Source: JBFJWU01 sp041623475 [NCBI: bacterium] (GTDB lineage: Bacteria; J088). From it: 8,166 nucleotides of DNA. The notes beneath the pieces were generated by a model, which was given only the letters and a program-made list of their open reading frames with translations, was not told where the DNA came from and did not search any database. A program made the position numbers and the translations under genes. Numbering within the stretch: the stretch's first letter is position 1; every line of letters starts with the position of its first letter. Shown here piece after piece: positions 1 to 8,103 of this stretch. The stretch covers positions 1 through 8,166 of the forward strand of contig JBFJWU010000138.1 in assembly GCA_041623475.1 (NCBI GenBank), written 5' to 3'.

Positions 1-699
1 CCGGCTTGAATGGGAACCGAAGGCTTCCGCCCATCCACCTGTTGCGTAAACGACGACGTTGCCCATTTCGGCAGTCAAGCGTTCAAGCATACCTTCGACA
101 AGCGCCAGAAACCCCCAGAAAATTCCTGATTGCAGGCTTTCGACGGTTGTCCGGCCAATAATCTGTTCCGGTGGAGTCGGATCGATACGGGGCAATTTTG
201 CCGTATTCCTGAACAATGCTTCTGTCGACACATGGATGCCAGGGCTAATGGCCCCGCCGAGGTAGCTTCCATCCGGCCCAACACAGTCAAATGTGATCGC
301 AGTGCCAAAATCAACAACAATCAGCGCGTCCTGTGTCTGTTCATAAGCGGCCACGGCATTCACGATCCTGTCGGCACCAACTTCTTTTGGGTTTTCGTAA
401 CGTACTGCGATTCCTGTTCGAACGCCGGGCCCGACCACAAGTACCGGCACATCGGGAAGGAGTTCCCGACAGGCATCCTGAAACAGGTGCTCAAGCGGCG
501 GCACGACAGAACAGATTACGATACCGGACACGGCGCTGATCCCAGATGTTTTCTGGTTAATCCACTGGTACAGGGTGATGCCCAGTTCGTCAGGAGTCCA
601 GTCACGGCGACTGCTGAAACGCCCGTGTACGATCAGTTCGGTTCCGTCAAACAGGCCGCAAACGGTTTGCGTATTTCCGATGTCAACTGCCAGCAACAT
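1..699 (-). CDS. coaX: Type III pantothenate kinase, partial (3' end outside window)
   Basis: Phosphorylates pantothenate with ATP, the first step of CoA synthesis, in the cytoplasm. The reading frame is open from ATG 699 to base 1 without a stop, giving 233 codons; the family is usually about 255-260 residues, so roughly 20-25 C-terminal residues lie outside. Visible motifs are the N-terminal phosphate-binding DIGNT (residues 6-10), NPKEVGADR (103-111) with the presumed catalytic base D110, VVDFGTAITFD (128-138) with D130, and GGAISPGI (148-155). These mark the CoaX (Bvg accessory factor-like) fold, not CoaA or CoaW. The ATG was chosen because homologues begin MLLAIDIGNT. An in-frame GTG at 720 would add seven residues but lies inside birA. 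The gene starts 4 bases after the birA stop with no clear Shine-Dalgarno, so translation is probably coupled to birA. Identity is secure. Confidence 0.95.
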   Translation of the reverse strand, partial: MLLAVDIGNTQTVCGLFDGTELIVHGRFSSRRDWTPDELGITLYQWINQKTSGISAVSGIVICSVVPPLEHLFQDACRELLPDVPVLVVGPGVRTGIAVRYENPKEVGADRIVNAVAAYEQTQDALIVVDFGTAITFDCVGPDGSYLGGAISPGIHVSTEALFRNTAKLPRIDPTPPEQIIGRTTVESLQSGIFWGFLALVEGMLERLTAEMGNVVVYATGGWAEAFGSHSSR

Positions 700-703
700 A
701 CGG

Positions 704-1483
704 CTATTGTTTGTCCCCACTCACGATCGGTTGGTCCTGAAGAATCAGTTCGCCGGCGCCGATCAACACAACACGGCCATCCTGTTGGCGCAGTTTCAGC
801 TGGCCCAGGTGATTGATGCCTTCAATGTAACCCGTGAATTTTGGCGTTTCAACCCCTTGCACACTGCAAATTCGCGCTGTCGGGTGCAGTGCCCGGTTAT
901 ACCGCTGAACAAAATCCTCCATATTGCCGCCGCGGATCAAGGCAAGTTCGTGGTTCAACTGGATCCACCAGTCGTGAATCAAAGTTGATGCGGGCAAGTC
1001 AGGATTCGCAACATGATCGGCAAGGCAAGTCGCAGATTCGGCGATTTCCGCTGGTGGTCCTTCAGCAGGCCAACGAATATTTACACCGGTCCCGACAATT
1101 ACGCCAGCCGGTTGGTCGCCCTGCCAGATGCCTTCACAGAGTATTCCGGCAAGTTTCTTCAATCGGCTGTCAAGGATGTCGTTTGGCCATTTGAGGTGGA
1201 TTTGAAGGTGATCTGCAAGCACTTGTTCGAGCGCGAGACCGGCGGCCAGTGAAACCAGATGAATTTGATCGGCGCTAAGTCCCGGGGCCACGAACGTAGA
1301 CCACATTGCAGTCTTGCCAGTATCCAGCCACTGGCGTCCCAGGCGTCCCCGTCCGCCAGTCTGGCGACTGGCGACAATGGTCGTTCCGTGGGGCAGGTCC
1401 TGCAATTCCAGGCGGCGATGCAGTTCAGCCTGTGTGCTGTCCAGTTCCTCGAACTCTTGAATATGTAATTCCGGGACGATCAT
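704..1483 (-). CDS. birA: Biotin--[acetyl-CoA-carboxylase] ligase, without DNA-binding domain
   Basis: Activates biotin as biotinyl-AMP and transfers it to the lysine of a carboxyl carrier protein, such as that of acetyl-CoA carboxylase. At 259 residues it is a group I ligase: the catalytic domain starts almost at residue 1, with no N-terminal helix-turn-helix, so it should not act as the biotin repressor known from E. coli BirA. Motifs are DST (15-17), the biotinyl-AMP loop GGRGRLGR (43-50), KWPND (98-102), KKLAGIL with probable catalytic K110, and VGTGVNI (130-136). A small C-terminal SH3-like domain follows from about residue 215, with the GxL...GxxxLIGAGE pattern. Its ATG overlaps the nadC stop in ATGA (1483-1480), the upstream sequence has only a poor ribosome-binding site, and TAG at 706-704 is followed after 4 bases by coaX. 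The overlap supports ATG 1483 as the start and implies translational coupling. Confidence 0.95.
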   Translation of the reverse strand: MIVPELHIQEFEELDSTQAELHRRLELQDLPHGTTIVASRQTGGRGRLGRQWLDTGKTAMWSTFVAPGLSADQIHLVSLAAGLALEQVLADHLQIHLKWPNDILDSRLKKLAGILCEGIWQGDQPAGVIVGTGVNIRWPAEGPPAEIAESATCLADHVANPDLPASTLIHDWWIQLNHELALIRGGNMEDFVQRYNRALHPTARICSVQGVETPKFTGYIEGINHLGQLKLRQQDGRVVLIGAGELILQDQPIVSGDKQ

Positions 1484-2331
1484 TGGATAATGTCCAGGCC
1501 AATGTCCAGTGGGGCCGCTGACAGGACGGTCTGGCTGGTGCTGATGTAAATGGTTCGCGGCGGTTCGGGGATAGAAGAAATAACGTCAAACCGGATACCG
1601 CCGCTGAATTCCAATGTAATATCGTCTGATATTGCGTTCCAGAATTTCGGCCAGTCCGCTATTATCTGGTTGTCGATCAGTAGATGAGTCGCGCCGGCGT
1701 CGATCGCCTGTTCAGCCGCATCGAGCGATTCCACTTCACAAATCAGGTATAAACCCGGGAATGCGTTTTTGGCGGCAATTACGGCCGCACCGACATTCTG
1801 GTGCATCGCCAGGTGGTTATCCTTGATCATGATCGCGGCGGCCAAATTATACCTGTGGTTGCATCCACCTCCGTCGGCTACGGCTCGTCGTTCCCAGGCA
1901 CGCAGTCCCGGGTGGGTCTTGCGAGTATCCAGGATCCGGATCCGATCGGGAAGTTCAGATACCCAGCGACGAGTTTCAGTTGCGATCCCGCAAAGGATCT
2001 GCAGTCCATTCAATAACGTTCGTTCCAGCCCCAGCAAATGGCGGGCGTTGCCACCGATCGCAGCAATGGGCTGGCCTGTTGTGACAACCTCGCCGTTCTT
2101 GCAGTAGATTTCGGTTTCCAGATCCAGGTCAAGGGCCCGGATCAGCCCGGGCAACAACTCAATGGCAGTCAGAACGCCGTCATGTCTGAATCGCAGATGA
2201 CCGGACATCCTGGCATCGGCCGAAATGGTTGCCAGGGACGTTGCGTCACCGGTTCCGATATCCGCGCGATATTCGTTGACAAACAGATCCAAAGTCGGAT
2301 CGGATTCATTGACCAGTAATCCAATGGCCAT
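1480..2331 (-). CDS. nadC: Nicotinate-nucleotide pyrophosphorylase (carboxylating), quinolinate phosphoribosyltransferase
   Basis: Converts quinolinate and PRPP to nicotinate mononucleotide, CO2 and pyrophosphate, in de novo NAD synthesis. The 283-residue length is normal. Motifs in order are DIGTGD (24-29), ERTLLN (103-108), GIAT (115-118), DTRKTHPGLR (135-144), GGGCNHR (154-160), IKDNH (169-173), EVES (199-202), LIDN (218-221) and EFSGGI (241-246). R104, R137, K138, H159, R160, K170, E199 and D220 fit the known active-site set of the family. The N-terminal AEDIG pattern is RADIG here, a small departure. ATG 2331 is the first ATG, GTG or TTG after the in-frame TGA that ends valS, and leaves a short N-terminus before the conserved block, so it is preferred. 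A weak GGGA lies 4 bases upstream. The 3' end overlaps birA. No nadA or nadB partner is visible in the window. Confidence 0.96.
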   Translation of the reverse strand: MAIGLLVNESDPTLDLFVNEYRADIGTGDATSLATISADARMSGHLRFRHDGVLTAIELLPGLIRALDLDLETEIYCKNGEVVTTGQPIAAIGGNARHLLGLERTLLNGLQILCGIATETRRWVSELPDRIRILDTRKTHPGLRAWERRAVADGGGCNHRYNLAAAIMIKDNHLAMHQNVGAAVIAAKNAFPGLYLICEVESLDAAEQAIDAGATHLLIDNQIIADWPKFWNAISDDITLEFSGGIRFDVISSIPEPPRTIYISTSQTVLSAAPLDIGLDIIQ

Positions 2332-2391: not shown

Positions 2392-5037
2392 TCAGACAAA
2401 GCGTCGCAGCTCATCCAGGTGTGACATGGATTTGTCAACCAGGTCCTGCAATTCAGATTGTCGTGCGCGTTCCTTGGCAACCACTTCTGCCGGAGCCTTG
2501 TCGACGAATCCCTGATTGGATAATTTCCCATTTACCTTGCCCAGGTCAGCCTCTGCCGCCTTCAGCTGTTTCTCGACGCGTTCAAGTTCTGACTCAATGT
2601 CGACCAGGCCGTGAAGCGGAACCCAAATCTGGAATTCTGCGGACGAAACACGGGCTCCGTAGATTGTTGGATCCGGTTCCACCAGCAATTTGTCGACCTT
2701 GGCAAGGGACGTAAACAGTGGCAGCCATTCAGGGGATACCAGAGTTGAGTCTTCCGCCACATTCAGGGCGACGTCCAGTGGCTTGCCCGGTGGTAACCCG
2801 TTTTCCGCGCGAATGTTGCGAACGCTCCGAACCGATTGATAAAGAATATCGAATTCGGCGATCAGCCCATCGTCACCAGCAAATGCAGATCCGGATGGGA
2901 ACGACTGCAAAGCAACCGGAGATTTGCCGGAACCCGGTAATGCGGCCGACAGTTCTTCCGTCAAGAAAGGCATCGCCGGGTGTGCAAGTCGCAGGAGTTC
3001 GCGAAACGCGTATACGAGCGTAGCGTGGGTTTCGCGGCGAAGCTCTTCGGATTCATCGGCCAGCGTCTTGCTTCCCTCGATGTACCAGTCACAAAAACGG
3101 TTCCAGGCCAGATCATAGACGGTCTGGGCGTAATCATTGAATGCAAAGTTTTCGAGCTGGTTGGATGCTTTGCCGGATGCGGCACGAATTTCAGCCCAGA
3201 TCCAACGGTTAAACGGATGACTTGGCTCGACGGGAACGACTTCTTCATCACCGACTGTGCGCAACACGAATCGTCCGGCATTCCAAAGCTTGTTTGCAAA
3301 ATGCCGATATCCTTCGATTCGGTTTGTATTTAGACGAATGTCTCGTCCCAAAGTTGTCATCGCTGTCAACGTAAATCGCAGAGCATCAGCGCCGTACTGG
3401 TCTATCAGCTCAAGGGGGTCGATAACATTACCCTTGGTCTTGCTCATCTTTTCGCCATCTTCGTCCCGAACAATGGCGTGCAGGACCACATTGGAAAATG
3501 GGACTTTACCTGTGAAATGGACACCCATCATCATCATCCGTGCAACCCAGAAAAAGAGGATATCGAACCCGGTGACAAGGGTCGAGGTCGGGTACCATTT
3601 GTCGAGTTCTGGCGTCTGGTCCGGCCAGCCCAGTGTGCTCATCGGCCACAAACCGCTGGAAAACCAGGTGTCCAGAACGTCCGTGTCCTGTTCATACAGG
3701 CCACGGCATTCCGGGCACGATTCAGGATCTTCGCGGTGGGCCTGCTGGTGGCCACATGATTGGCAGGTCCATACAGGGATTCTGTGACCCCACCAGATCT
3801 GCCTTGAGATACACCAATCGCGAATGTTTTCCAGCCATTGGCGAAAGACTTTTTCCCATTGGTCTGGCTGGAATTCAGTTTCTTTGTTGTCGACGCGTTC
3901 CAGTACGGCCTGTGCCAATGGTTCTGTTTTGACAAACCACTGGTCAGATAGAAATGGTTCGACGATTGTCTGGCACCGGTAACAGTGGCCAACCGCGTGT
4001 CGCAGCGTCTCGGTTTCTCCGCGAAGGCCTTTGGATCCCAGCAATTCCAGTACTTTCTTTCGAGCCGCAAACCTGTCAAGTCCCGACAGTTCCCCGAACC
4101 CGTCAACGATCGTCGCATTTTCGTCAAGAACTGAAATCAATGGAAGGTCGTGTCGGCTGCCGATTTCGTTGTCATTGAAATCGTGTCCCGGAGTGACTTT
4201 CAGCACGCCTGTCCCGTACTCCGGGTCTACGTGGTCATCGGCGATAACCGGGATTTCCCGATCAACAATCGGCAGTACCAAGGTTGTCCCGATCAGGTGT
4301 TTGTAACGATCATCATCGGGGTGCACGGCGACGGCTGTATCACCAAGCATTGTTTCTGGTCGTGTTGTGGCAACCGTCAATGTCATCGATCCGTCGGGAA
4401 CGGGGTAATGCAGTTCGTATAATCCGCCGTCGATTTCTTCCATTTCGACTTCCAGGTCGCTCAGTGCCGTCTTGCAGGACGGGCACCAGTTGACCAGGTA
4501 CGTTCCCCGATAAATTAAACCTTGTTCATACAGCTGCACGAAAGCCTCGCGCACCGCTCGACTGGAATGGACATCCATTGTGAACCGAAGTCGGTCCCAG
4601 TCACAGCTTGCGCCCAGACGTCGCAGTTGGCCGACGATCTGGTTGCCACTTTGCTCTTTCCAGCGCCAGACTTCTTCCAGAAATGCATCACGGCCGATTT
4701 CCAGTCGCTCTTTTCCCTGTTTTCGAAGATTGCGCTCGACAACCGTTTGCGTGGCGATCCCGGCGTGGTCGATACCGGGCTGCCACAGTACGGATTGACC
4801 GCGCATTCTGTGGTATCGAATCAAGACATCCTGGATAGTGCTGTTCAAGGCGTGCCCCATGTGCAGGGCACCTGTGACATTCGGTGGTGGCAGGATTATG
4901 CAGAATGGGTCGCCGGCTTCAATGCGGGCGACTGAATCGAACACACCTTGCTGATGCCAGGTGTCCAGCCAGGATGGCTCGATTTCAGAAGGTTCGTACG
5001 CGCCGTCAAGGACGCGGGTTCTATGATCCACGATCAT
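2392..5037 (-). CDS. valS: Valyl-tRNA synthetase
   Basis: Charges tRNA-Val with valine and edits mischarged threonine. The 881 residues match the family's usual length. The class I signature PPPNVTGALHMGH ends in HMGH at 59-62, and the second signature is KMSKT (530-534) where KMSKS is usual, a conservative change. The editing domain shows TTRPETMLGDTAV (224-236) and YGTGVLKVTPGHDFND (274-289). Cysteine pairs at 185/188, 352/355, 425/428 and 441/444 look like intact zinc knuckles. WWGHRIPVW (415-423) and DTDVLDTWFSSGLWP (451-465) are also typical. Residues from about 810 to the end form the charged C-terminal coiled coil that contacts tRNA in bacterial ValRS. The start is uncertain by two codons: GGGGA (5042-5038) abuts ATG 5037 directly, but lies a favourable 6 bases before an in-frame GTG at 5031. 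The gene sits 65 bases after the response regulator and 60 before nadC. Confidence 0.97.
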   Translation of the reverse strand: MIVDHRTRVLDGAYEPSEIEPSWLDTWHQQGVFDSVARIEAGDPFCIILPPPNVTGALHMGHALNSTIQDVLIRYHRMRGQSVLWQPGIDHAGIATQTVVERNLRKQGKERLEIGRDAFLEEVWRWKEQSGNQIVGQLRRLGASCDWDRLRFTMDVHSSRAVREAFVQLYEQGLIYRGTYLVNWCPSCKTALSDLEVEMEEIDGGLYELHYPVPDGSMTLTVATTRPETMLGDTAVAVHPDDDRYKHLIGTTLVLPIVDREIPVIADDHVDPEYGTGVLKVTPGHDFNDNEIGSRHDLPLISVLDENATIVDGFGELSGLDRFAARKKVLELLGSKGLRGETETLRHAVGHCYRCQTIVEPFLSDQWFVKTEPLAQAVLERVDNKETEFQPDQWEKVFRQWLENIRDWCISRQIWWGHRIPVWTCQSCGHQQAHREDPESCPECRGLYEQDTDVLDTWFSSGLWPMSTLGWPDQTPELDKWYPTSTLVTGFDILFFWVARMMMMGVHFTGKVPFSNVVLHAIVRDEDGEKMSKTKGNVIDPLELIDQYGADALRFTLTAMTTLGRDIRLNTNRIEGYRHFANKLWNAGRFVLRTVGDEEVVPVEPSHPFNRWIWAEIRAASGKASNQLENFAFNDYAQTVYDLAWNRFCDWYIEGSKTLADESEELRRETHATLVYAFRELLRLAHPAMPFLTEELSAALPGSGKSPVALQSFPSGSAFAGDDGLIAEFDILYQSVRSVRNIRAENGLPPGKPLDVALNVAEDSTLVSPEWLPLFTSLAKVDKLLVEPDPTIYGARVSSAEFQIWVPLHGLVDIESELERVEKQLKAAEADLGKVNGKLSNQGFVDKAPAEVVAKERARQSELQDLVDKSMSHLDELRRFV

Positions 5038-5042
5038 TCCCC
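5038..5042 (-). promoter_or_regulatory. valS: Ribosome-binding site that questions the valS start
   Basis: The minus strand reads GGGGA directly followed by ATG ATC GTG. With zero spacing to the ATG and 6 bases to the GTG, the normal spacing rule favours GTG 5031 (879 residues) over ATG 5037 (881). Either way the conserved part of ValRS is unaffected. Confidence 0.4.
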
Positions 5043-5051
5043 GGTAAGTGG

Positions 5052-5080
5052 GTCTGTCCAGGCCGGAAGCCAGGACAGAC
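5052..5080 (-). promoter_or_regulatory. Stem-loop between response regulator and valS
   Basis: GTCTGTCC (5052-5059) pairs perfectly with GGACAGAC (5073-5080). Inside, after one A.A mismatch, GGC (5061-5063) pairs with GCC (5069-5071) around a 5-base loop. In minus-strand RNA it ends 14 bases before ATG 5037, just ahead of the GGGGA ribosome-binding site. No U-run follows, so it is not a standard Rho-independent terminator. It could separate the expression of the two genes by pausing, by an RNA end or by affecting initiation. The structure is seen; the role is inferred. Confidence 0.55.
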
Positions 5081-5102
5081 AGATGGTCGTCCAGTTGCCG
5101 CG

Positions 5103-6998
5103 TCAGGTAAGACGCGATCGAATACTTTCGAGAACTTTTTCCAGCGCATCGGCAACTGCACGGTCAACAGCCTGGGGCAGGACCTCGTTCAGGACTGCGT
5201 TAATCCTGGCTTCAATTTCAGCAGGGTCGACAACGCCACCCGGTTCAGATTCGTCTGGATCGGCCGTGGCCACTGGCGTGTCATCTGGATGCTGCTGATC
5301 GGCATCGATGAAGTCCTCAGGTACCCCATCCTCGATTACCGAATCGTTTGCTGCTATGACATCGGATTCGCCAACGGCGCTTTCCTGAACATCGTCGTCA
5401 GCTTCCATCGCAGCGAACTGGGCAAACACATCGTCGCCACCGGCCGCTGGATCTTCGACCGGGGCGGACTCTGGCTGGGGTTCGATCGACGGTTCAGCCG
5501 GGATGTCGTCAAAATCGGAGACAGGCTCGATTTCCTCTGCAGCTTCGTACTGTGCCGCTGGGACCGAATCTGACGATTCCAGCCCGAACGCATCGGACTG
5601 AGACTCGACAGGCTCTGTTTCGATGGATTCGACCGAGTCGACACCCGCAACGGGTTCCGGCTCGGAATCATATGACATCGGGTCGGCTGACGTTTCCGCA
5701 ATCGGCCCGATATCGGATTCGTTGTTAACCGGTGCGTCGTCGAGCACGAGTTCACCTGAGTCGACGGTTCCGTCATAGCCGTCATCCGACTGGGATTCGG
5801 CGTATTCCGAATCTGCAACTGGCGGCGCCGCGCTGGTCACGTCATCGAGACCCTCGTCGTTAGCGGCAACAGACCCGCCAGGCATTTCGCTGTCACCAGG
5901 AATTCCTGCGCCAGGATCCGAAACAATGTCTGAATCGCCGAATTCGTGGGCGGTCGGTTCTGGCTCCGGCTCAAAGGACGCATCTGAGCCGTCGAAACTC
6001 TCGAAATCCTGACTGGCTGCGGGAGTCTCTTCAACCGGTTCTATTTCGTCCGCGGGTCCAAATTCTTCGAACGGTTCCAGATCTTCGACCGGCTCCAGAT
6101 CCTCAACCGCTTCAAGATCTTCTACTGGCTCCGGGGCAATGCCTCCAGTGTCGAATTCGGGCTCGGCAGCAGGTGTGTCGGTAGCGAACTCGTCTGCGGG
6201 AGCCATCGAAATTTCTTCCGTCTGGTGCGCTTCCGGGGCAACCGGGGCCTGGGCACCCTGGTCATCGTTTCCTGCAAAGCTTTCGAATTCATCCATGTCC
6301 CAGTCCGAGCCAGCATCGGCGGGCTCAGGCGAAGCCTCTGGGCCAGGTTCGCCAAATGACGTTGCTGTTGCTGGCTCGAGGTCTTCAACGGACTCCAGGT
6401 CCTCGACTGGTTCCACGCCGGTCAGGTCGTCTTCGGGCAGCGACGTAACAGTCTGCAGATCGTCAATTGCGCTCGAAGGTGGGGCAGTTGCCTCCTCTGC
6501 CGATACGTCACCAAAGTCCATGGGGTCGGCAACAGCAGGAACTGCTTCTGCCTGCGGGGGCATCTCGGCGGGTTGCGGGTCCGATTCAATTGCAGAAGGT
6601 TCAGGAGTCGCGCCGGCGTCCGGTGCCTGTGCCGACTCAATCAGGGAATTGACTTTGTCGATCAAAGCCTGGCTTTCAAAAGGTTTGGTCAAATAGTCGT
6701 TGGCACCAACCTGGTTCGCTCGTTCTTCGTCAAAAACCTCATACGTTCCAGTCAGCAGGATCACGGGAATAGACTGTAACTCGGGAGTCGCGCGAATCTT
6801 TTCGCACAGGTCGTAGCCACTGAGGCCGGGCATATTGGTATCCGCTATGACAAGGTCCGGCGGGGAGGCGGCGGCCATCTGGAAGGCTTCGTCCCCGTTG
6901 TCCGCAGACTCAAGCTCGACATCCTCGTTAGCAAAAGTAAGGCCAATGACTTTCTGGATGGTGATGCTGTCATCAGCGACAAGGATCTTGCGGGTCAT
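5103..6998 (-). CDS. Receiver-domain protein with long acidic K/R-free linker and helical C-terminal tail
   Basis: A 631-residue cytoplasmic protein. Residues 1-121 are a CheY-like receiver with all key residues: acidic pair D9/D10, phosphoacceptor D53 (IADTNMPG), T83 and K105 (TKPF). The sequence ADDSITIQKVIGLTFA and the ending GANDYLTKPFESQ place it, from memory, with response regulators common in Geobacter, Myxococcota and Acidobacteriota. Residues 122 to about 588 are a low-complexity linker rich in D, E, P, A and S, with no lysine or arginine from 116 to 597, and with VEDLE(P/A/S) hexads and four FxxF motifs. Residues 591-631 form a predicted amphipathic helical tail in which K/R reappear. 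There is no DNA-binding, kinase or enzymatic output domain, signal peptide or membrane segment, so output is probably by protein-protein contact. No histidine kinase is nearby. ATG 6998 is preferred over an in-frame ATG at 7034 because AGGAGGAG lies 6 bases before it and it begins at the conserved MTRKILVADDS. The target and phenotype are unknown. Confidence 0.9.
   Translation of the reverse strand: MTRKILVADDSITIQKVIGLTFANEDVELESADNGDEAFQMAAASPPDLVIADTNMPGLSGYDLCEKIRATPELQSIPVILLTGTYEVFDEERANQVGANDYLTKPFESQALIDKVNSLIESAQAPDAGATPEPSAIESDPQPAEMPPQAEAVPAVADPMDFGDVSAEEATAPPSSAIDDLQTVTSLPEDDLTGVEPVEDLESVEDLEPATATSFGEPGPEASPEPADAGSDWDMDEFESFAGNDDQGAQAPVAPEAHQTEEISMAPADEFATDTPAAEPEFDTGGIAPEPVEDLEAVEDLEPVEDLEPFEEFGPADEIEPVEETPAASQDFESFDGSDASFEPEPEPTAHEFGDSDIVSDPGAGIPGDSEMPGGSVAANDEGLDDVTSAAPPVADSEYAESQSDDGYDGTVDSGELVLDDAPVNNESDIGPIAETSADPMSYDSEPEPVAGVDSVESIETEPVESQSDAFGLESSDSVPAAQYEAAEEIEPVSDFDDIPAEPSIEPQPESAPVEDPAAGGDDVFAQFAAMEADDDVQESAVGESDVIAANDSVIEDGVPEDFIDADQQHPDDTPVATADPDESEPGGVVDPAEIEARINAVLNEVLPQAVDRAVADALEKVLESIRSRLT
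6027..6131 (-). repeat. Main block of 18-bp / hexapeptide repeats in the acidic linker
   Basis: Coding for residues 290-324 of the response regulator. After EP, the protein reads VEDLEA, VEDLEP, VEDLEP, FEEFGP, ADEIEP, VEETPA: six hexads of decaying similarity. The first three are close at DNA level (18-base units built on GAAGATCTGGA with third-position changes), which suggests tandem duplication by slippage followed by drift. Confidence 0.75.
6372..6413 (-). repeat. Second copy of the VEDLE hexad repeat
   Basis: Residues 196-209 of the response regulator read EP, VEDLES, VEDLEP, matching the start of the larger block about 280 bases downstream in the gene. The same module therefore occurs twice in the linker, 94 residues apart. 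Confidence 0.7.
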
Positions 6999-7004
6999 CG
7001 GATG

Positions 7005-7012
7005 CTCCTCCT
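7005..7012 (-). promoter_or_regulatory. Strong ribosome-binding site setting the response-regulator start
   Basis: AGGAGGAG on the minus strand, 6 bases before ATG 6998. It lies inside the extended reading frame that would begin at ATG 7034, which argues that the extra 12 codons are leader and not protein. Confidence 0.85.
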
Positions 7013-7025
7013 GAGCCATTCCCAG

Positions 7026-7042
7026 TGCGGTCACAAACCGCA
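7026..7042 (-). promoter_or_regulatory. Leader hairpin upstream of the response-regulator ribosome-binding site
   Basis: TGCGGT (7026-7031) and ACCGCA (7037-7042) form a perfect 6-bp stem with a 5-base loop. In the minus-strand transcript the stem ends 13 bases before the AGGAGGAG. No U-run follows. It could affect translation or RNA stability; no known riboswitch is recognised. Confidence 0.4.
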
Positions 7043-7250: not shown

Positions 7251-7256
7251 TATGAT
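7251..7256 (+). promoter_or_regulatory. mutM: Possible -10 element for mutM
   Basis: TATGAT matches the -10 consensus at five of six positions, and would put the transcript start about 20 bases before the GTG. The only -35-like sequences upstream are badly spaced: TTGAAG at 7223-7228 is 22 bases away and TTGCCA at 7209-7214 is 36. The call is therefore weak. Confidence 0.3.
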
Positions 7257-7270
7257 AACGGCCGTTGGCC

Positions 7271-7276
7271 AGGGGG
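7271..7276 (+). promoter_or_regulatory. mutM: Ribosome-binding site fixing the mutM start
   Basis: AGGGGG lies 5 bases before GTG 7282. It falls inside the longer frame opening at ATG 7252, so the upstream ATG is unlikely to be the real start. Confidence 0.75.
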
Positions 7277-7281
7277 TAATC

Positions 7282-8103
7282 GTGCCAGAACTTCCAGAGG
7301 TGGAAACAGTTGTCCGGGACCTGCGTGATCGCGGGTTGATTGGGCAGGTCCTGGTGAATTTGCGCGTGGTCGATGACCGACTGCGTTTGACCGCCGACGG
7401 GGATCTGAGCAGGTACGACGGTCAACGGCTGGTGAGCATTCGGCGGCGCGGCAAATTCATTATTTACGAGTTTGACAATGGTTACCTGGTTCAGCACCTG
7501 CGAATGACCGGCAAGATGGTCCCGTGGCTGGATGGAACGCCGGCGAGCATGCCAATTCGGTTTGTTGCCGAATTCGAAAATGGTGCCGTTGCATTTCACG
7601 ATGTACGCCGTTTTGGAACCCTGGATGCCCCGACGGATATTGAAGACTGGGACGCGGCCAGGAATATGGCACCGGAAATGATCGGGGTCGACGACATTTC
7701 CCCGGCGCGCAGCCACTTTTTGACCCGGTTGCGTGCGACAGGGCGGCCGGTCAAGTCTGCCTTGCTGGATCAATCAATTGCCTGCGGGGTCGGGAATATT
7801 TATGCCGACGAAGGCTGTCACGCCGCGGGTATTCATCCCCGCAGAGCCGGCAACAGGATTTCGGAGCGTCGCGCGACCCGGCTGTTTGACGAGGTTAGAA
7901 ACGTGATGCAGCAGGCGATCGACAAACGAGGGACGACAATGTCCGACTATTTTGATGTTAACGGCAACCCCGGAGTGTTTCGCAAGTACCTGAATGTGTA
8001 CAAGCGGGCGGGACTGCCGTGTAAATCGTGTGGTCATGCGGAGATCCAGCGGATCGTCGTCGGTGGGCGCTCGACCCATTTTTGCGGGAGTTGTCAAAGA
8101 TAG
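7282..8103 (+). CDS. mutM: Formamidopyrimidine-DNA glycosylase (GTG start)
   Basis: Removes 8-oxoguanine and formamidopyrimidines from DNA by base excision, with AP-lyase activity. The start is GTG 7282 and not ATG 7252: the next codons give PELPEVET, and the family requires that the N-terminal proline, freed by removal of formyl-Met, be the nucleophile. Counting that proline as 1, E2, K57 (RRRGK), the HLRMTG loop (71-76), R108-R109-F110 (DVRRFG) and the H2TH segment GVGNIY with N171 fall at or near the E. coli positions. The C-terminal zinc finger is C246, C249, C267, C270 with R262 in GGRSTHFC. The 272-residue mature length is normal and the active site complete. The gene is divergent from the response-regulator run. 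MutY or MutT are not in the window. Confidence 0.97.
   Translation: MPELPEVETVVRDLRDRGLIGQVLVNLRVVDDRLRLTADGDLSRYDGQRLVSIRRRGKFIIYEFDNGYLVQHLRMTGKMVPWLDGTPASMPIRFVAEFENGAVAFHDVRRFGTLDAPTDIEDWDAARNMAPEMIGVDDISPARSHFLTRLRATGRPVKSALLDQSIACGVGNIYADEGCHAAGIHPRRAGNRISERRATRLFDEVRNVMQQAIDKRGTTMSDYFDVNGNPGVFRKYLNVYKRAGLPCKSCGHAEIQRIVVGGRSTHFCGSCQR

Follow-up and report, generated by a model that had tools for sequence, protein, structure and literature searches.

FrzS and other receiver-plus-coil polarity regulators of Myxococcus join a receiver domain to a long non-enzymatic output region. In the available parts of the publications cited here, RomR of Myxococcus xanthus (MXAN_4461) is described as a receiver followed by an unstructured linker, which varies in length and make-up with taxonomy, and by a C-terminal region, RomR-C, that has a conserved Glu and an invariant Trp and Pro and is not homologous to characterised domains (PMC3441718). 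Its phosphorylation residue is D53 (PMC3441718, PMC6428892), and the linker alone or RomR-C alone suffices for polar targeting (PMC3441718). The C-terminal helix, in which residues E390, K391, W394 and E402 are named, is trimeric, and the W394A substitution abolishes MglC binding (PMC12719032). RomR of Bdellovibrio (Bd2761) has been termed a polar hub that probably binds a wide variety of partners directly (PMC11025332), and activation of its receiver is reported lost (PMC6428892). PopZ carries self-associating C-terminal helices preceded by an acidic, Pro-rich disordered region, and a popZ-valS neighbourhood is stated for Caulobacter, Agrobacterium and Magnetospirillum (PMC5686542, PMC6414705), again in the available parts of these sources.

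Receiver and gene neighbourhood

We analysed an 8,166-nucleotide stretch of DNA (the window), in which the minus-strand open reading frame 5103-7034 holds a romR-like gene. The ATG at 6998 (protein start MTRK) was taken as the start because homologues align from there, giving a protein of 631 amino acids. The gene, its receiver and its neighbours are arranged as follows.

5103..6998, minus strand: RomR-family response regulator, 631 aa, MTRK start, stop included (family receiver model, homologue alignment)
6636..6998, minus strand: receiver domain, residues 1-121, with D9/D10, D53 and K105 intact (Pfam PF00072, E 3e-26; pLDDT ~96)
6840..6842, minus strand: D53 codon, expected phosphorylation site (alignment; same number as D53 of M. 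xanthus RomR)
2392..5037, minus strand: valS, directly downstream of the romR-like gene (Pfam)
1480..2331, minus strand: nadC (Pfam)
704..1483, minus strand: birA-like biotin ligase (Pfam)
1..720, minus strand: coaX, type III pantothenate kinase, cut by the end of the window (Pfam)
7252..8103, plus strand: mutM, divergent neighbour (Pfam/NCBIfam)

By its receiver, architecture and gene order, the 631-residue protein is a predicted member of RomR. Residues D9, D10, D53 and K105 fall in invariant columns of a 32-row alignment, and AlphaFold2, run on a 22-row alignment, is confident over residues 1-124. Pfam and NCBIfam models returned generic receivers and nothing more specific for this protein, PADLOC gave no match on the window, and the top plasmid and PDB matches were likewise generic receivers, all below 60% identity among the 5000 plasmid matches listed. 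A receiver-based genome scan yielded at least 80 loci, of which L001-L038 were read as one family because beyond L038 identity falls from 47% to 37%; the record titles of these 38 mention Desulfuromonas and Geobacter relatives, other Deltaproteobacteria, Nitrospirae, Acidobacteria, Myxococcales, Anaeromyxobacter and Nitrospina. Thirty-four of these 38 loci, those readable to the stop, have the same plan of receiver, low-complexity linker and C-terminal helix. The 631-residue protein scores 174 bits on a family receiver model whose rows include it, and its receiver is 63% identical to that of L160, 62.5% to L163, 46-58% to 31 relatives, ~50% to L223 and as little as 38% to some members in the phylum of the Nitrospina genome G021. 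By receiver identity the nearest relatives form a class of two genomes, whereas comparison of ValS singled out no genome: long matches were mostly 43-51% identical, shorter pieces reached 59%, and one distant genome gave 28%.

The receiver model sets the family apart from other regulators. Within the phylum of G021 it recovered the gene in 65 of the 77 genomes at E <1e-36 (next match 5e-32) and, with one gene each, in 132 of 145 genomes of the order of the Anaeromyxobacter genome G008 at 1e-34; in the phylum of the alphaproteobacterial genome G033 it matched none of 299 genomes at 1e-36. The link to RomR comes from L223 and L224, both of 420 aa, in which 12 of 13 published M. xanthus RomR residues, drawn from the available parts of PMC12719032, PMC3441718 and PMC6428892, are present and position 326 alone differs; the family is therefore RomR. 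Like the RomR proteins of M. xanthus and Bdellovibrio, the protein combines a receiver bearing D53 with an unstructured linker and a helical C-terminus, and it is unlike them in that its linker is all-acidic and free of Lys and Arg and its tail has diverged strongly, with the equivalents of W394, E390 and K391 replaced. An earlier note, made from the letters of the window, had described the architecture as a receiver, a long disordered spacer and a short helical tail, and the same plan appears in the AlphaFold2 model and in RomR.

Gene order points the same way. Of the 114 relatives' loci with enough sequence, 95 have valS next after romR on the same strand, and in the order of G008 (L223/L224 type) valS follows in 19 of 20. 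The full order romR-valS-nadC-birA-coaX recurs in L013, L018, L030, L184 and L185; a stricter automatic gene-order listing flags L018 alone, L184 and L185 having been excluded there as duplicates. The romR-valS neighbourhood is identified here and is absent from the RomR criteria in the available parts of the cited literature. The gap between the romR-like gene and valS (5038-5102) contains an inverted repeat, CTGTCC ... GGACAG on the minus strand, a possible transcript hairpin.

A linker without lysine or arginine

Between the receiver and the tail lies the part of the protein that attracted attention at the outset.

5208..6653, minus strand: run without Lys or Arg, 482 codons (sequence)
5235..6626, minus strand: acidic, Pro-rich disordered linker, residues 125-588 (AlphaFold2 pLDDT mostly <50; charge-hydropathy score negative)
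6372..6410, minus strand: VEDLE-type short repeat, residues 197-209 (sequence)
6276..6320, minus strand: residues 227-241, ADAGSDWDMDEFESF, with the sole linker Trp (resembles by eye the acidic Trp motif of L160, L163, L168 and L173)
6072..6128, minus strand: VEDLE-type short repeat, residues 291-309 (sequence)

The claim of the earlier note that K115 and R598 enclose no Lys or Arg proved exact: with K115 encoded by codon 6654-6656 and R598 by codon 5205-5207 on the minus strand, the intervening 482 codons contain neither residue and three His. Its description of very frequent Asp and Glu and prominent Pro, Ala and Ser is borne out by the counts (140 D+E, 29%; 68 A, 14%; 58 P, 12%; 45 S, 9%), and the net charge of the run is -140. 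The run also lies beyond chance, as had been proposed. With K+R as frequent as in the five neighbouring proteins (190/1936, 9.8%) its log10 P is -21.6, and when the protein's own composition was shuffled 20,000 times the longest K/R-free run to appear was 375. The linker's own codon-position base composition leads to an expectation of 18.7 K/R codons, for which the probability of observing none is, by simple arithmetic, ~5e-9, and 73 of 73 Glu codons are one base away from Lys. We considered an overlapping antisense gene over the linker and rejected it, since the antisense frames hold 5-7 stops and a longest open stretch of 213 codons.

The spacer had been taken to be disordered, and prediction agrees: on the 22-row alignment AlphaFold2 gives pLDDT mostly <50 in the linker, the few helices there being short and of low confidence, and no confident second folded domain within residues 125-588, and the charge-hydropathy score is negative. 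Within the linker, short VEDLE(P/A/S) repeats occur at 6372-6410 and 6072-6128. The setting of W233, SDWDMDEFESF, resembles, as judged by eye, EEEWNMEDFEEL of L160, among the closest receiver relatives. Of 119 proteins examined, a set in which some loci from outside the family (L045 and L053, for example) remained, 77 have a Trp in the linker, frequently within acidic surroundings like D-D-L-W. A second recurrent linker motif besides the acidic DxW, GSQW[IV]PVEExTF, is seen in L007, L014, L015, L019, L020, L036 and L178.

Comparison of 185 distinct complete members, the 631-residue protein included, showed that it is the sole case with a linker free of Lys and Arg; its run of 482 is the longest, followed by 331 (L254) and 316 (L002). 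Linker K+R is below 2% in 24 of the 185, among them eight loci titled as Desulfuromonadales or Geobacter-type genera or families, and linker net charge is zero or above in 39. Median linker K+R differs between the sets: the scan set (n=31) has 2.9%, the G002 phylum (n=49) 5.4%, the G021 phylum (n=59) 7.2% and the G008 order (n=45) 6.6%. In this order median linker D+E is 3.9%, and the L223 and L224 linkers are Pro/Arg-rich and barely acidic. Given this spread of medians and net charges, depletion of Lys and Arg is lineage-specific and graded, strong in some lineages, for example Desulfuromonadales, and no family rule, with the 631-residue protein at the extreme. Exclusion of Lys and Arg as a conserved requirement is not supported, and the homologues with K/R-containing linkers that the earlier note had named as evidence against its reading do in part exist, because linkers of the Anaeromyxobacter order contain Arg and have zero or positive net charge.

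The C-terminal tail and its possible relation to PopZ

5109..5225, minus strand: C-terminal helix, residues 592-630, diverged RomR-C with Pro608 kept (AlphaFold2 helix, pLDDT 73-81)

In the relatives, the C-terminal helix mostly follows a consensus like E-[KR]-x-x-W-E-V-V-P-x-L-A-E (34 loci readable to the stop). The tail of the 631-residue protein, anchored on Pro608, reads L-N-E-V-L-P-Q-A-V-D-R-A-V-A-D-A-L-E-K-V, so that at the M. xanthus positions E390 is replaced by N, K391 by A, W394 by N and E402 by D; it thus lacks the Trp called invariant in the available part of PMC3441718. The tail is barely recognisable by HMM: it scores 2.5 bits with a model of tails, built from a set in which some loci from outside the family, L045 for one, remained, and 1.3 bits with a narrower RomR-C model. 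Ranked against 53,422 control segments, the Pro-anchored 22-mer nonetheless falls in the top 0.022% on the RomR-C profile and in the top 0.011% on the PopZ profile; among 1,940 helix-like controls none reaches its RomR-C score, and a fraction of 0.0005 does so on the PopZ profile. A frameshift within the tail was rejected as an explanation, as the other two frames past the stop contain no RomR-C.

Of the 185 members, 113 carry the tail Trp: 30 of the 31 from the scan set, 44 of the 45 from the G008 order, 38 of the 49 from the G002 phylum and one of the 59 from the G021 phylum. In the last (e.g. L034, L085-L153), 58 of 59 complete tails are without the Trp...Pro motif, many having Arg instead. 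The RomR-C helix motif apparently stands in tandem, in at least two copies, at the C-terminus of L038, L008, L262 and L266. Eight loci with RomR-like receivers (L244, L246, L247, L249, L250, L253, L256 and L257) have tails without the Trp motif, most of them ending in a different final helix with Leu-Val-Arg.

Several lines of evidence bear on whether RomR and PopZ share an ancestor. A search with PF10691 (DUF2497) in 120 genomes of the alphaproteobacterial phylum of G033 matched 28, the Caulobacter control being positive. In 19 of 24 popZ loci popZ stands directly before valS on the same strand, 58-246 bases apart, and in the remaining five there is no valS within ~1.5 kb. PopZ is thus like the 631-residue protein and its gene in adjoining valS from directly upstream on the same strand, and in having an acidic, Pro-rich disordered region followed by C-terminal helices, whose patterns, e.g. 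P-x-L-[VA]-E-x-[LI]-[VI]-R-E-E-[IL]-E-R, can be likened to RomR-C. It is unlike RomR in that 24 PopZ open reading frames gave no significant receiver match (best E 0.17) and in that its N-terminal 26 residues hold ParA/ParB sites (PMC5182065, available in part).

Profile comparison gives these likenesses a measure. An hhalign comparison of a RomR-C block of 113 sequences with a PopZ block of 20 reaches a score of 23.2 at probability 77 and P 2e-5, and 19 of the columns stay in register. Controls with 82 natural segments reached at most 11.9 and 13.2, reversed ones at most 10.6 and 11.8, and 200 column shuffles had a maximum of 21.1, so that one came close to the real score. When a PopZ model was run on 13,232 open reading frames, the next 21 matches after PopZ itself were all RomR, some loci being counted twice, and 52 of 52 RomR matches (E up to 10) fell within the last 40 residues; these matches are individually insignificant (best E 0.3, 10.5 bits) and the RomR rows are not independent. 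On reversed open reading frames the best match had 10.3 bits and the next 7.3, and six of the top 50 were RomR, versus 41 of the top 50 in the forward direction. The RomR-C model, run on the same 13,232 frames, found as its best non-RomR entries L232, L226, L228 and L098, then PopZ. In L226, L228, L232 and L098 RomR-C lies in a different frame from the receiver, as expected of frameshifted romR genes or of sequencing errors. With these four read as frameshifted RomR tails, RomR-C and the PopZ helix are mutual best matches in this set of frames.

The Pfam evidence is weak or negative. On 80 RomR genomes PF10691 gave 39 weak matches in 29 genomes, none above the cut-off; three of the 39 lie on romR tails (G006, G018 and G105; E 2.5 to 5.8), and at the same loose limit the model also matches four of 14 control genomes. 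Run via Pfam, it matches one of 22 RomR members (E 1.9), and the 631-residue protein has no match at E up to 10. The PopZ resemblance in the earlier note, which had claimed no homology, therefore gains a shared valS-linked locus and a C-terminal helix pattern and receives little or nothing from PF10691.

Because gene position and helix pattern are shared, we regard common ancestry as somewhat favoured: RomR and PopZ may descend from one ancestral valS-linked gene for a disordered spacer and a C-terminal helix that self-associates, the N-terminal receiver having been either acquired or lost. If so, and we lean towards this only slightly, the 631-residue protein would keep the receiver together with a PopZ-like all-acidic spacer and a generic tail. 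No proposal of a relation between the two, either in the available parts of papers that name both or elsewhere, was found in the literature searched, a body that leaves out most subscription papers and preprints and in whose available parts PopZ and RomR are treated as separate systems.

Probable function and rival explanations

The 631-residue protein, an extreme variant of the known RomR family, is probably a RomR-family cell-polarity hub, judging from sequence, model and analogy. By analogy with RomR of M. xanthus and Bdellovibrio its most likely function would be that of a phosphorylation-tuned, self-associating polar hub. The C-terminal helix would self-associate into trimers and together with the linker would place the protein at a pole as clusters. 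These clusters would recruit partners, which in Myxococcus are those of the MglA/MglB/MglC/RomX module, and D53 phosphorylation would alter the switching state and not localisation, given the D53-dependent switch described for RomR (PMC3441718, available in part). Going a step further, the linker might serve as a polyelectrolyte spacer whose self-repulsion sets reach and the density of clusters, and its at least one short acidic Trp motif may dock partners. With the equivalents of W394, E390 and K391 replaced, the protein is predicted to have lost or altered any docking to an MglC-like protein.

The occurrence of Mgl partners varies among relatives. The MglB-like family PF03259 was found in 17 of the 21 RomR genomes first checked, 16 of them above the curated cut-off, and in a sample of the phylum of G002 it occurs in 50 of 56 RomR genomes versus 66 of 241 others (Fisher p 6e-18). 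In the phylum of G021 65 of 77 genomes have a RomR-type gene (E <1e-36) and six of 77 have PF03259; by sequence search, RomR there often occurs without an MglB-like protein, and an Mgl role is therefore not assumable for every member. A rule that loss of the tail Trp tracks loss of MglB was suggested by the first 21 genomes, in which L017, L034 and L035 have neither tail Trp nor PF03259; G017 (L030), also in that set, already has the Trp and no PF03259. Wider data broke the rule: G105 likewise has the Trp alone, G101 and G103 have PF03259 alone, and in the phylum of G002 several genomes combine PF03259 with Trp-less RomR tails.

Replacement of the MglC-binding residues is also what one would expect if the protein were a putative phosphorylation-gated condensate scaffold of PopZ type that no longer serves the Mgl module, its tail assembling and its acidic linker setting fluidity. 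The linker's net charge per residue, -0.29, is near the -0.28 reported for the PopZ linker (PMC9512792, available in part), and the Pro-anchored tail scores alike on the PopZ (10.4 bits) and RomR-C (10.6 bits) profiles. Yet RomR has other known partners, the linker here has five times the length of the 93-residue PopZ linker of Caulobacterales (a value taken from a source available in part), and a condensate scaffold would be a special case of a polar hub and no exclusive alternative to it. We hold this idea tentatively, as a possibility on the weaker side.

The linker could instead be an unconstrained long spacer in which acidity and lack of Lys and Arg arose by compositional drift, under loose selection for solubility alone. 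Consistent with this, linker charge differs widely between groups and the invariant columns of the 22-row full-length alignment are confined to the receiver and Pro608, bar one chance-like linker Pro; drift is nevertheless unlikely in view of the 18.7 K/R codons predicted from codon-position composition, the Glu codons all one base from Lys, and the K+R content below 2% in 24 of 185 members, including the eight Desulfuromonadales/Geobacter-type loci. The net charge of -140 would also suit a nucleic-acid mimic or polycation binder, like DNA-mimic proteins, and this we judge very improbable: AlphaFold2 predicts no folded mimic domain, Pro and Ala are high, and relatives have net-neutral or positive linkers at the same gene position. 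The RomR-like polar hub thus stays the preferred reading, and for it the protein offers a natural extreme, 482 residues with no Lys or Arg, for probing the effects of linker charge.

The comparison with PopZ yields a testable link between two polar hubs. If RomR and PopZ were one family, the condensate physics of PopZ and the GTPase switching of RomR would become mutually testable, and valS-linked genes would provide a handle for finding polar hubs in phyla that have received little study, among them that of Nitrospina. Receiver-controlled, condensate-type polar organisation would then be ancient and spread over several phyla.
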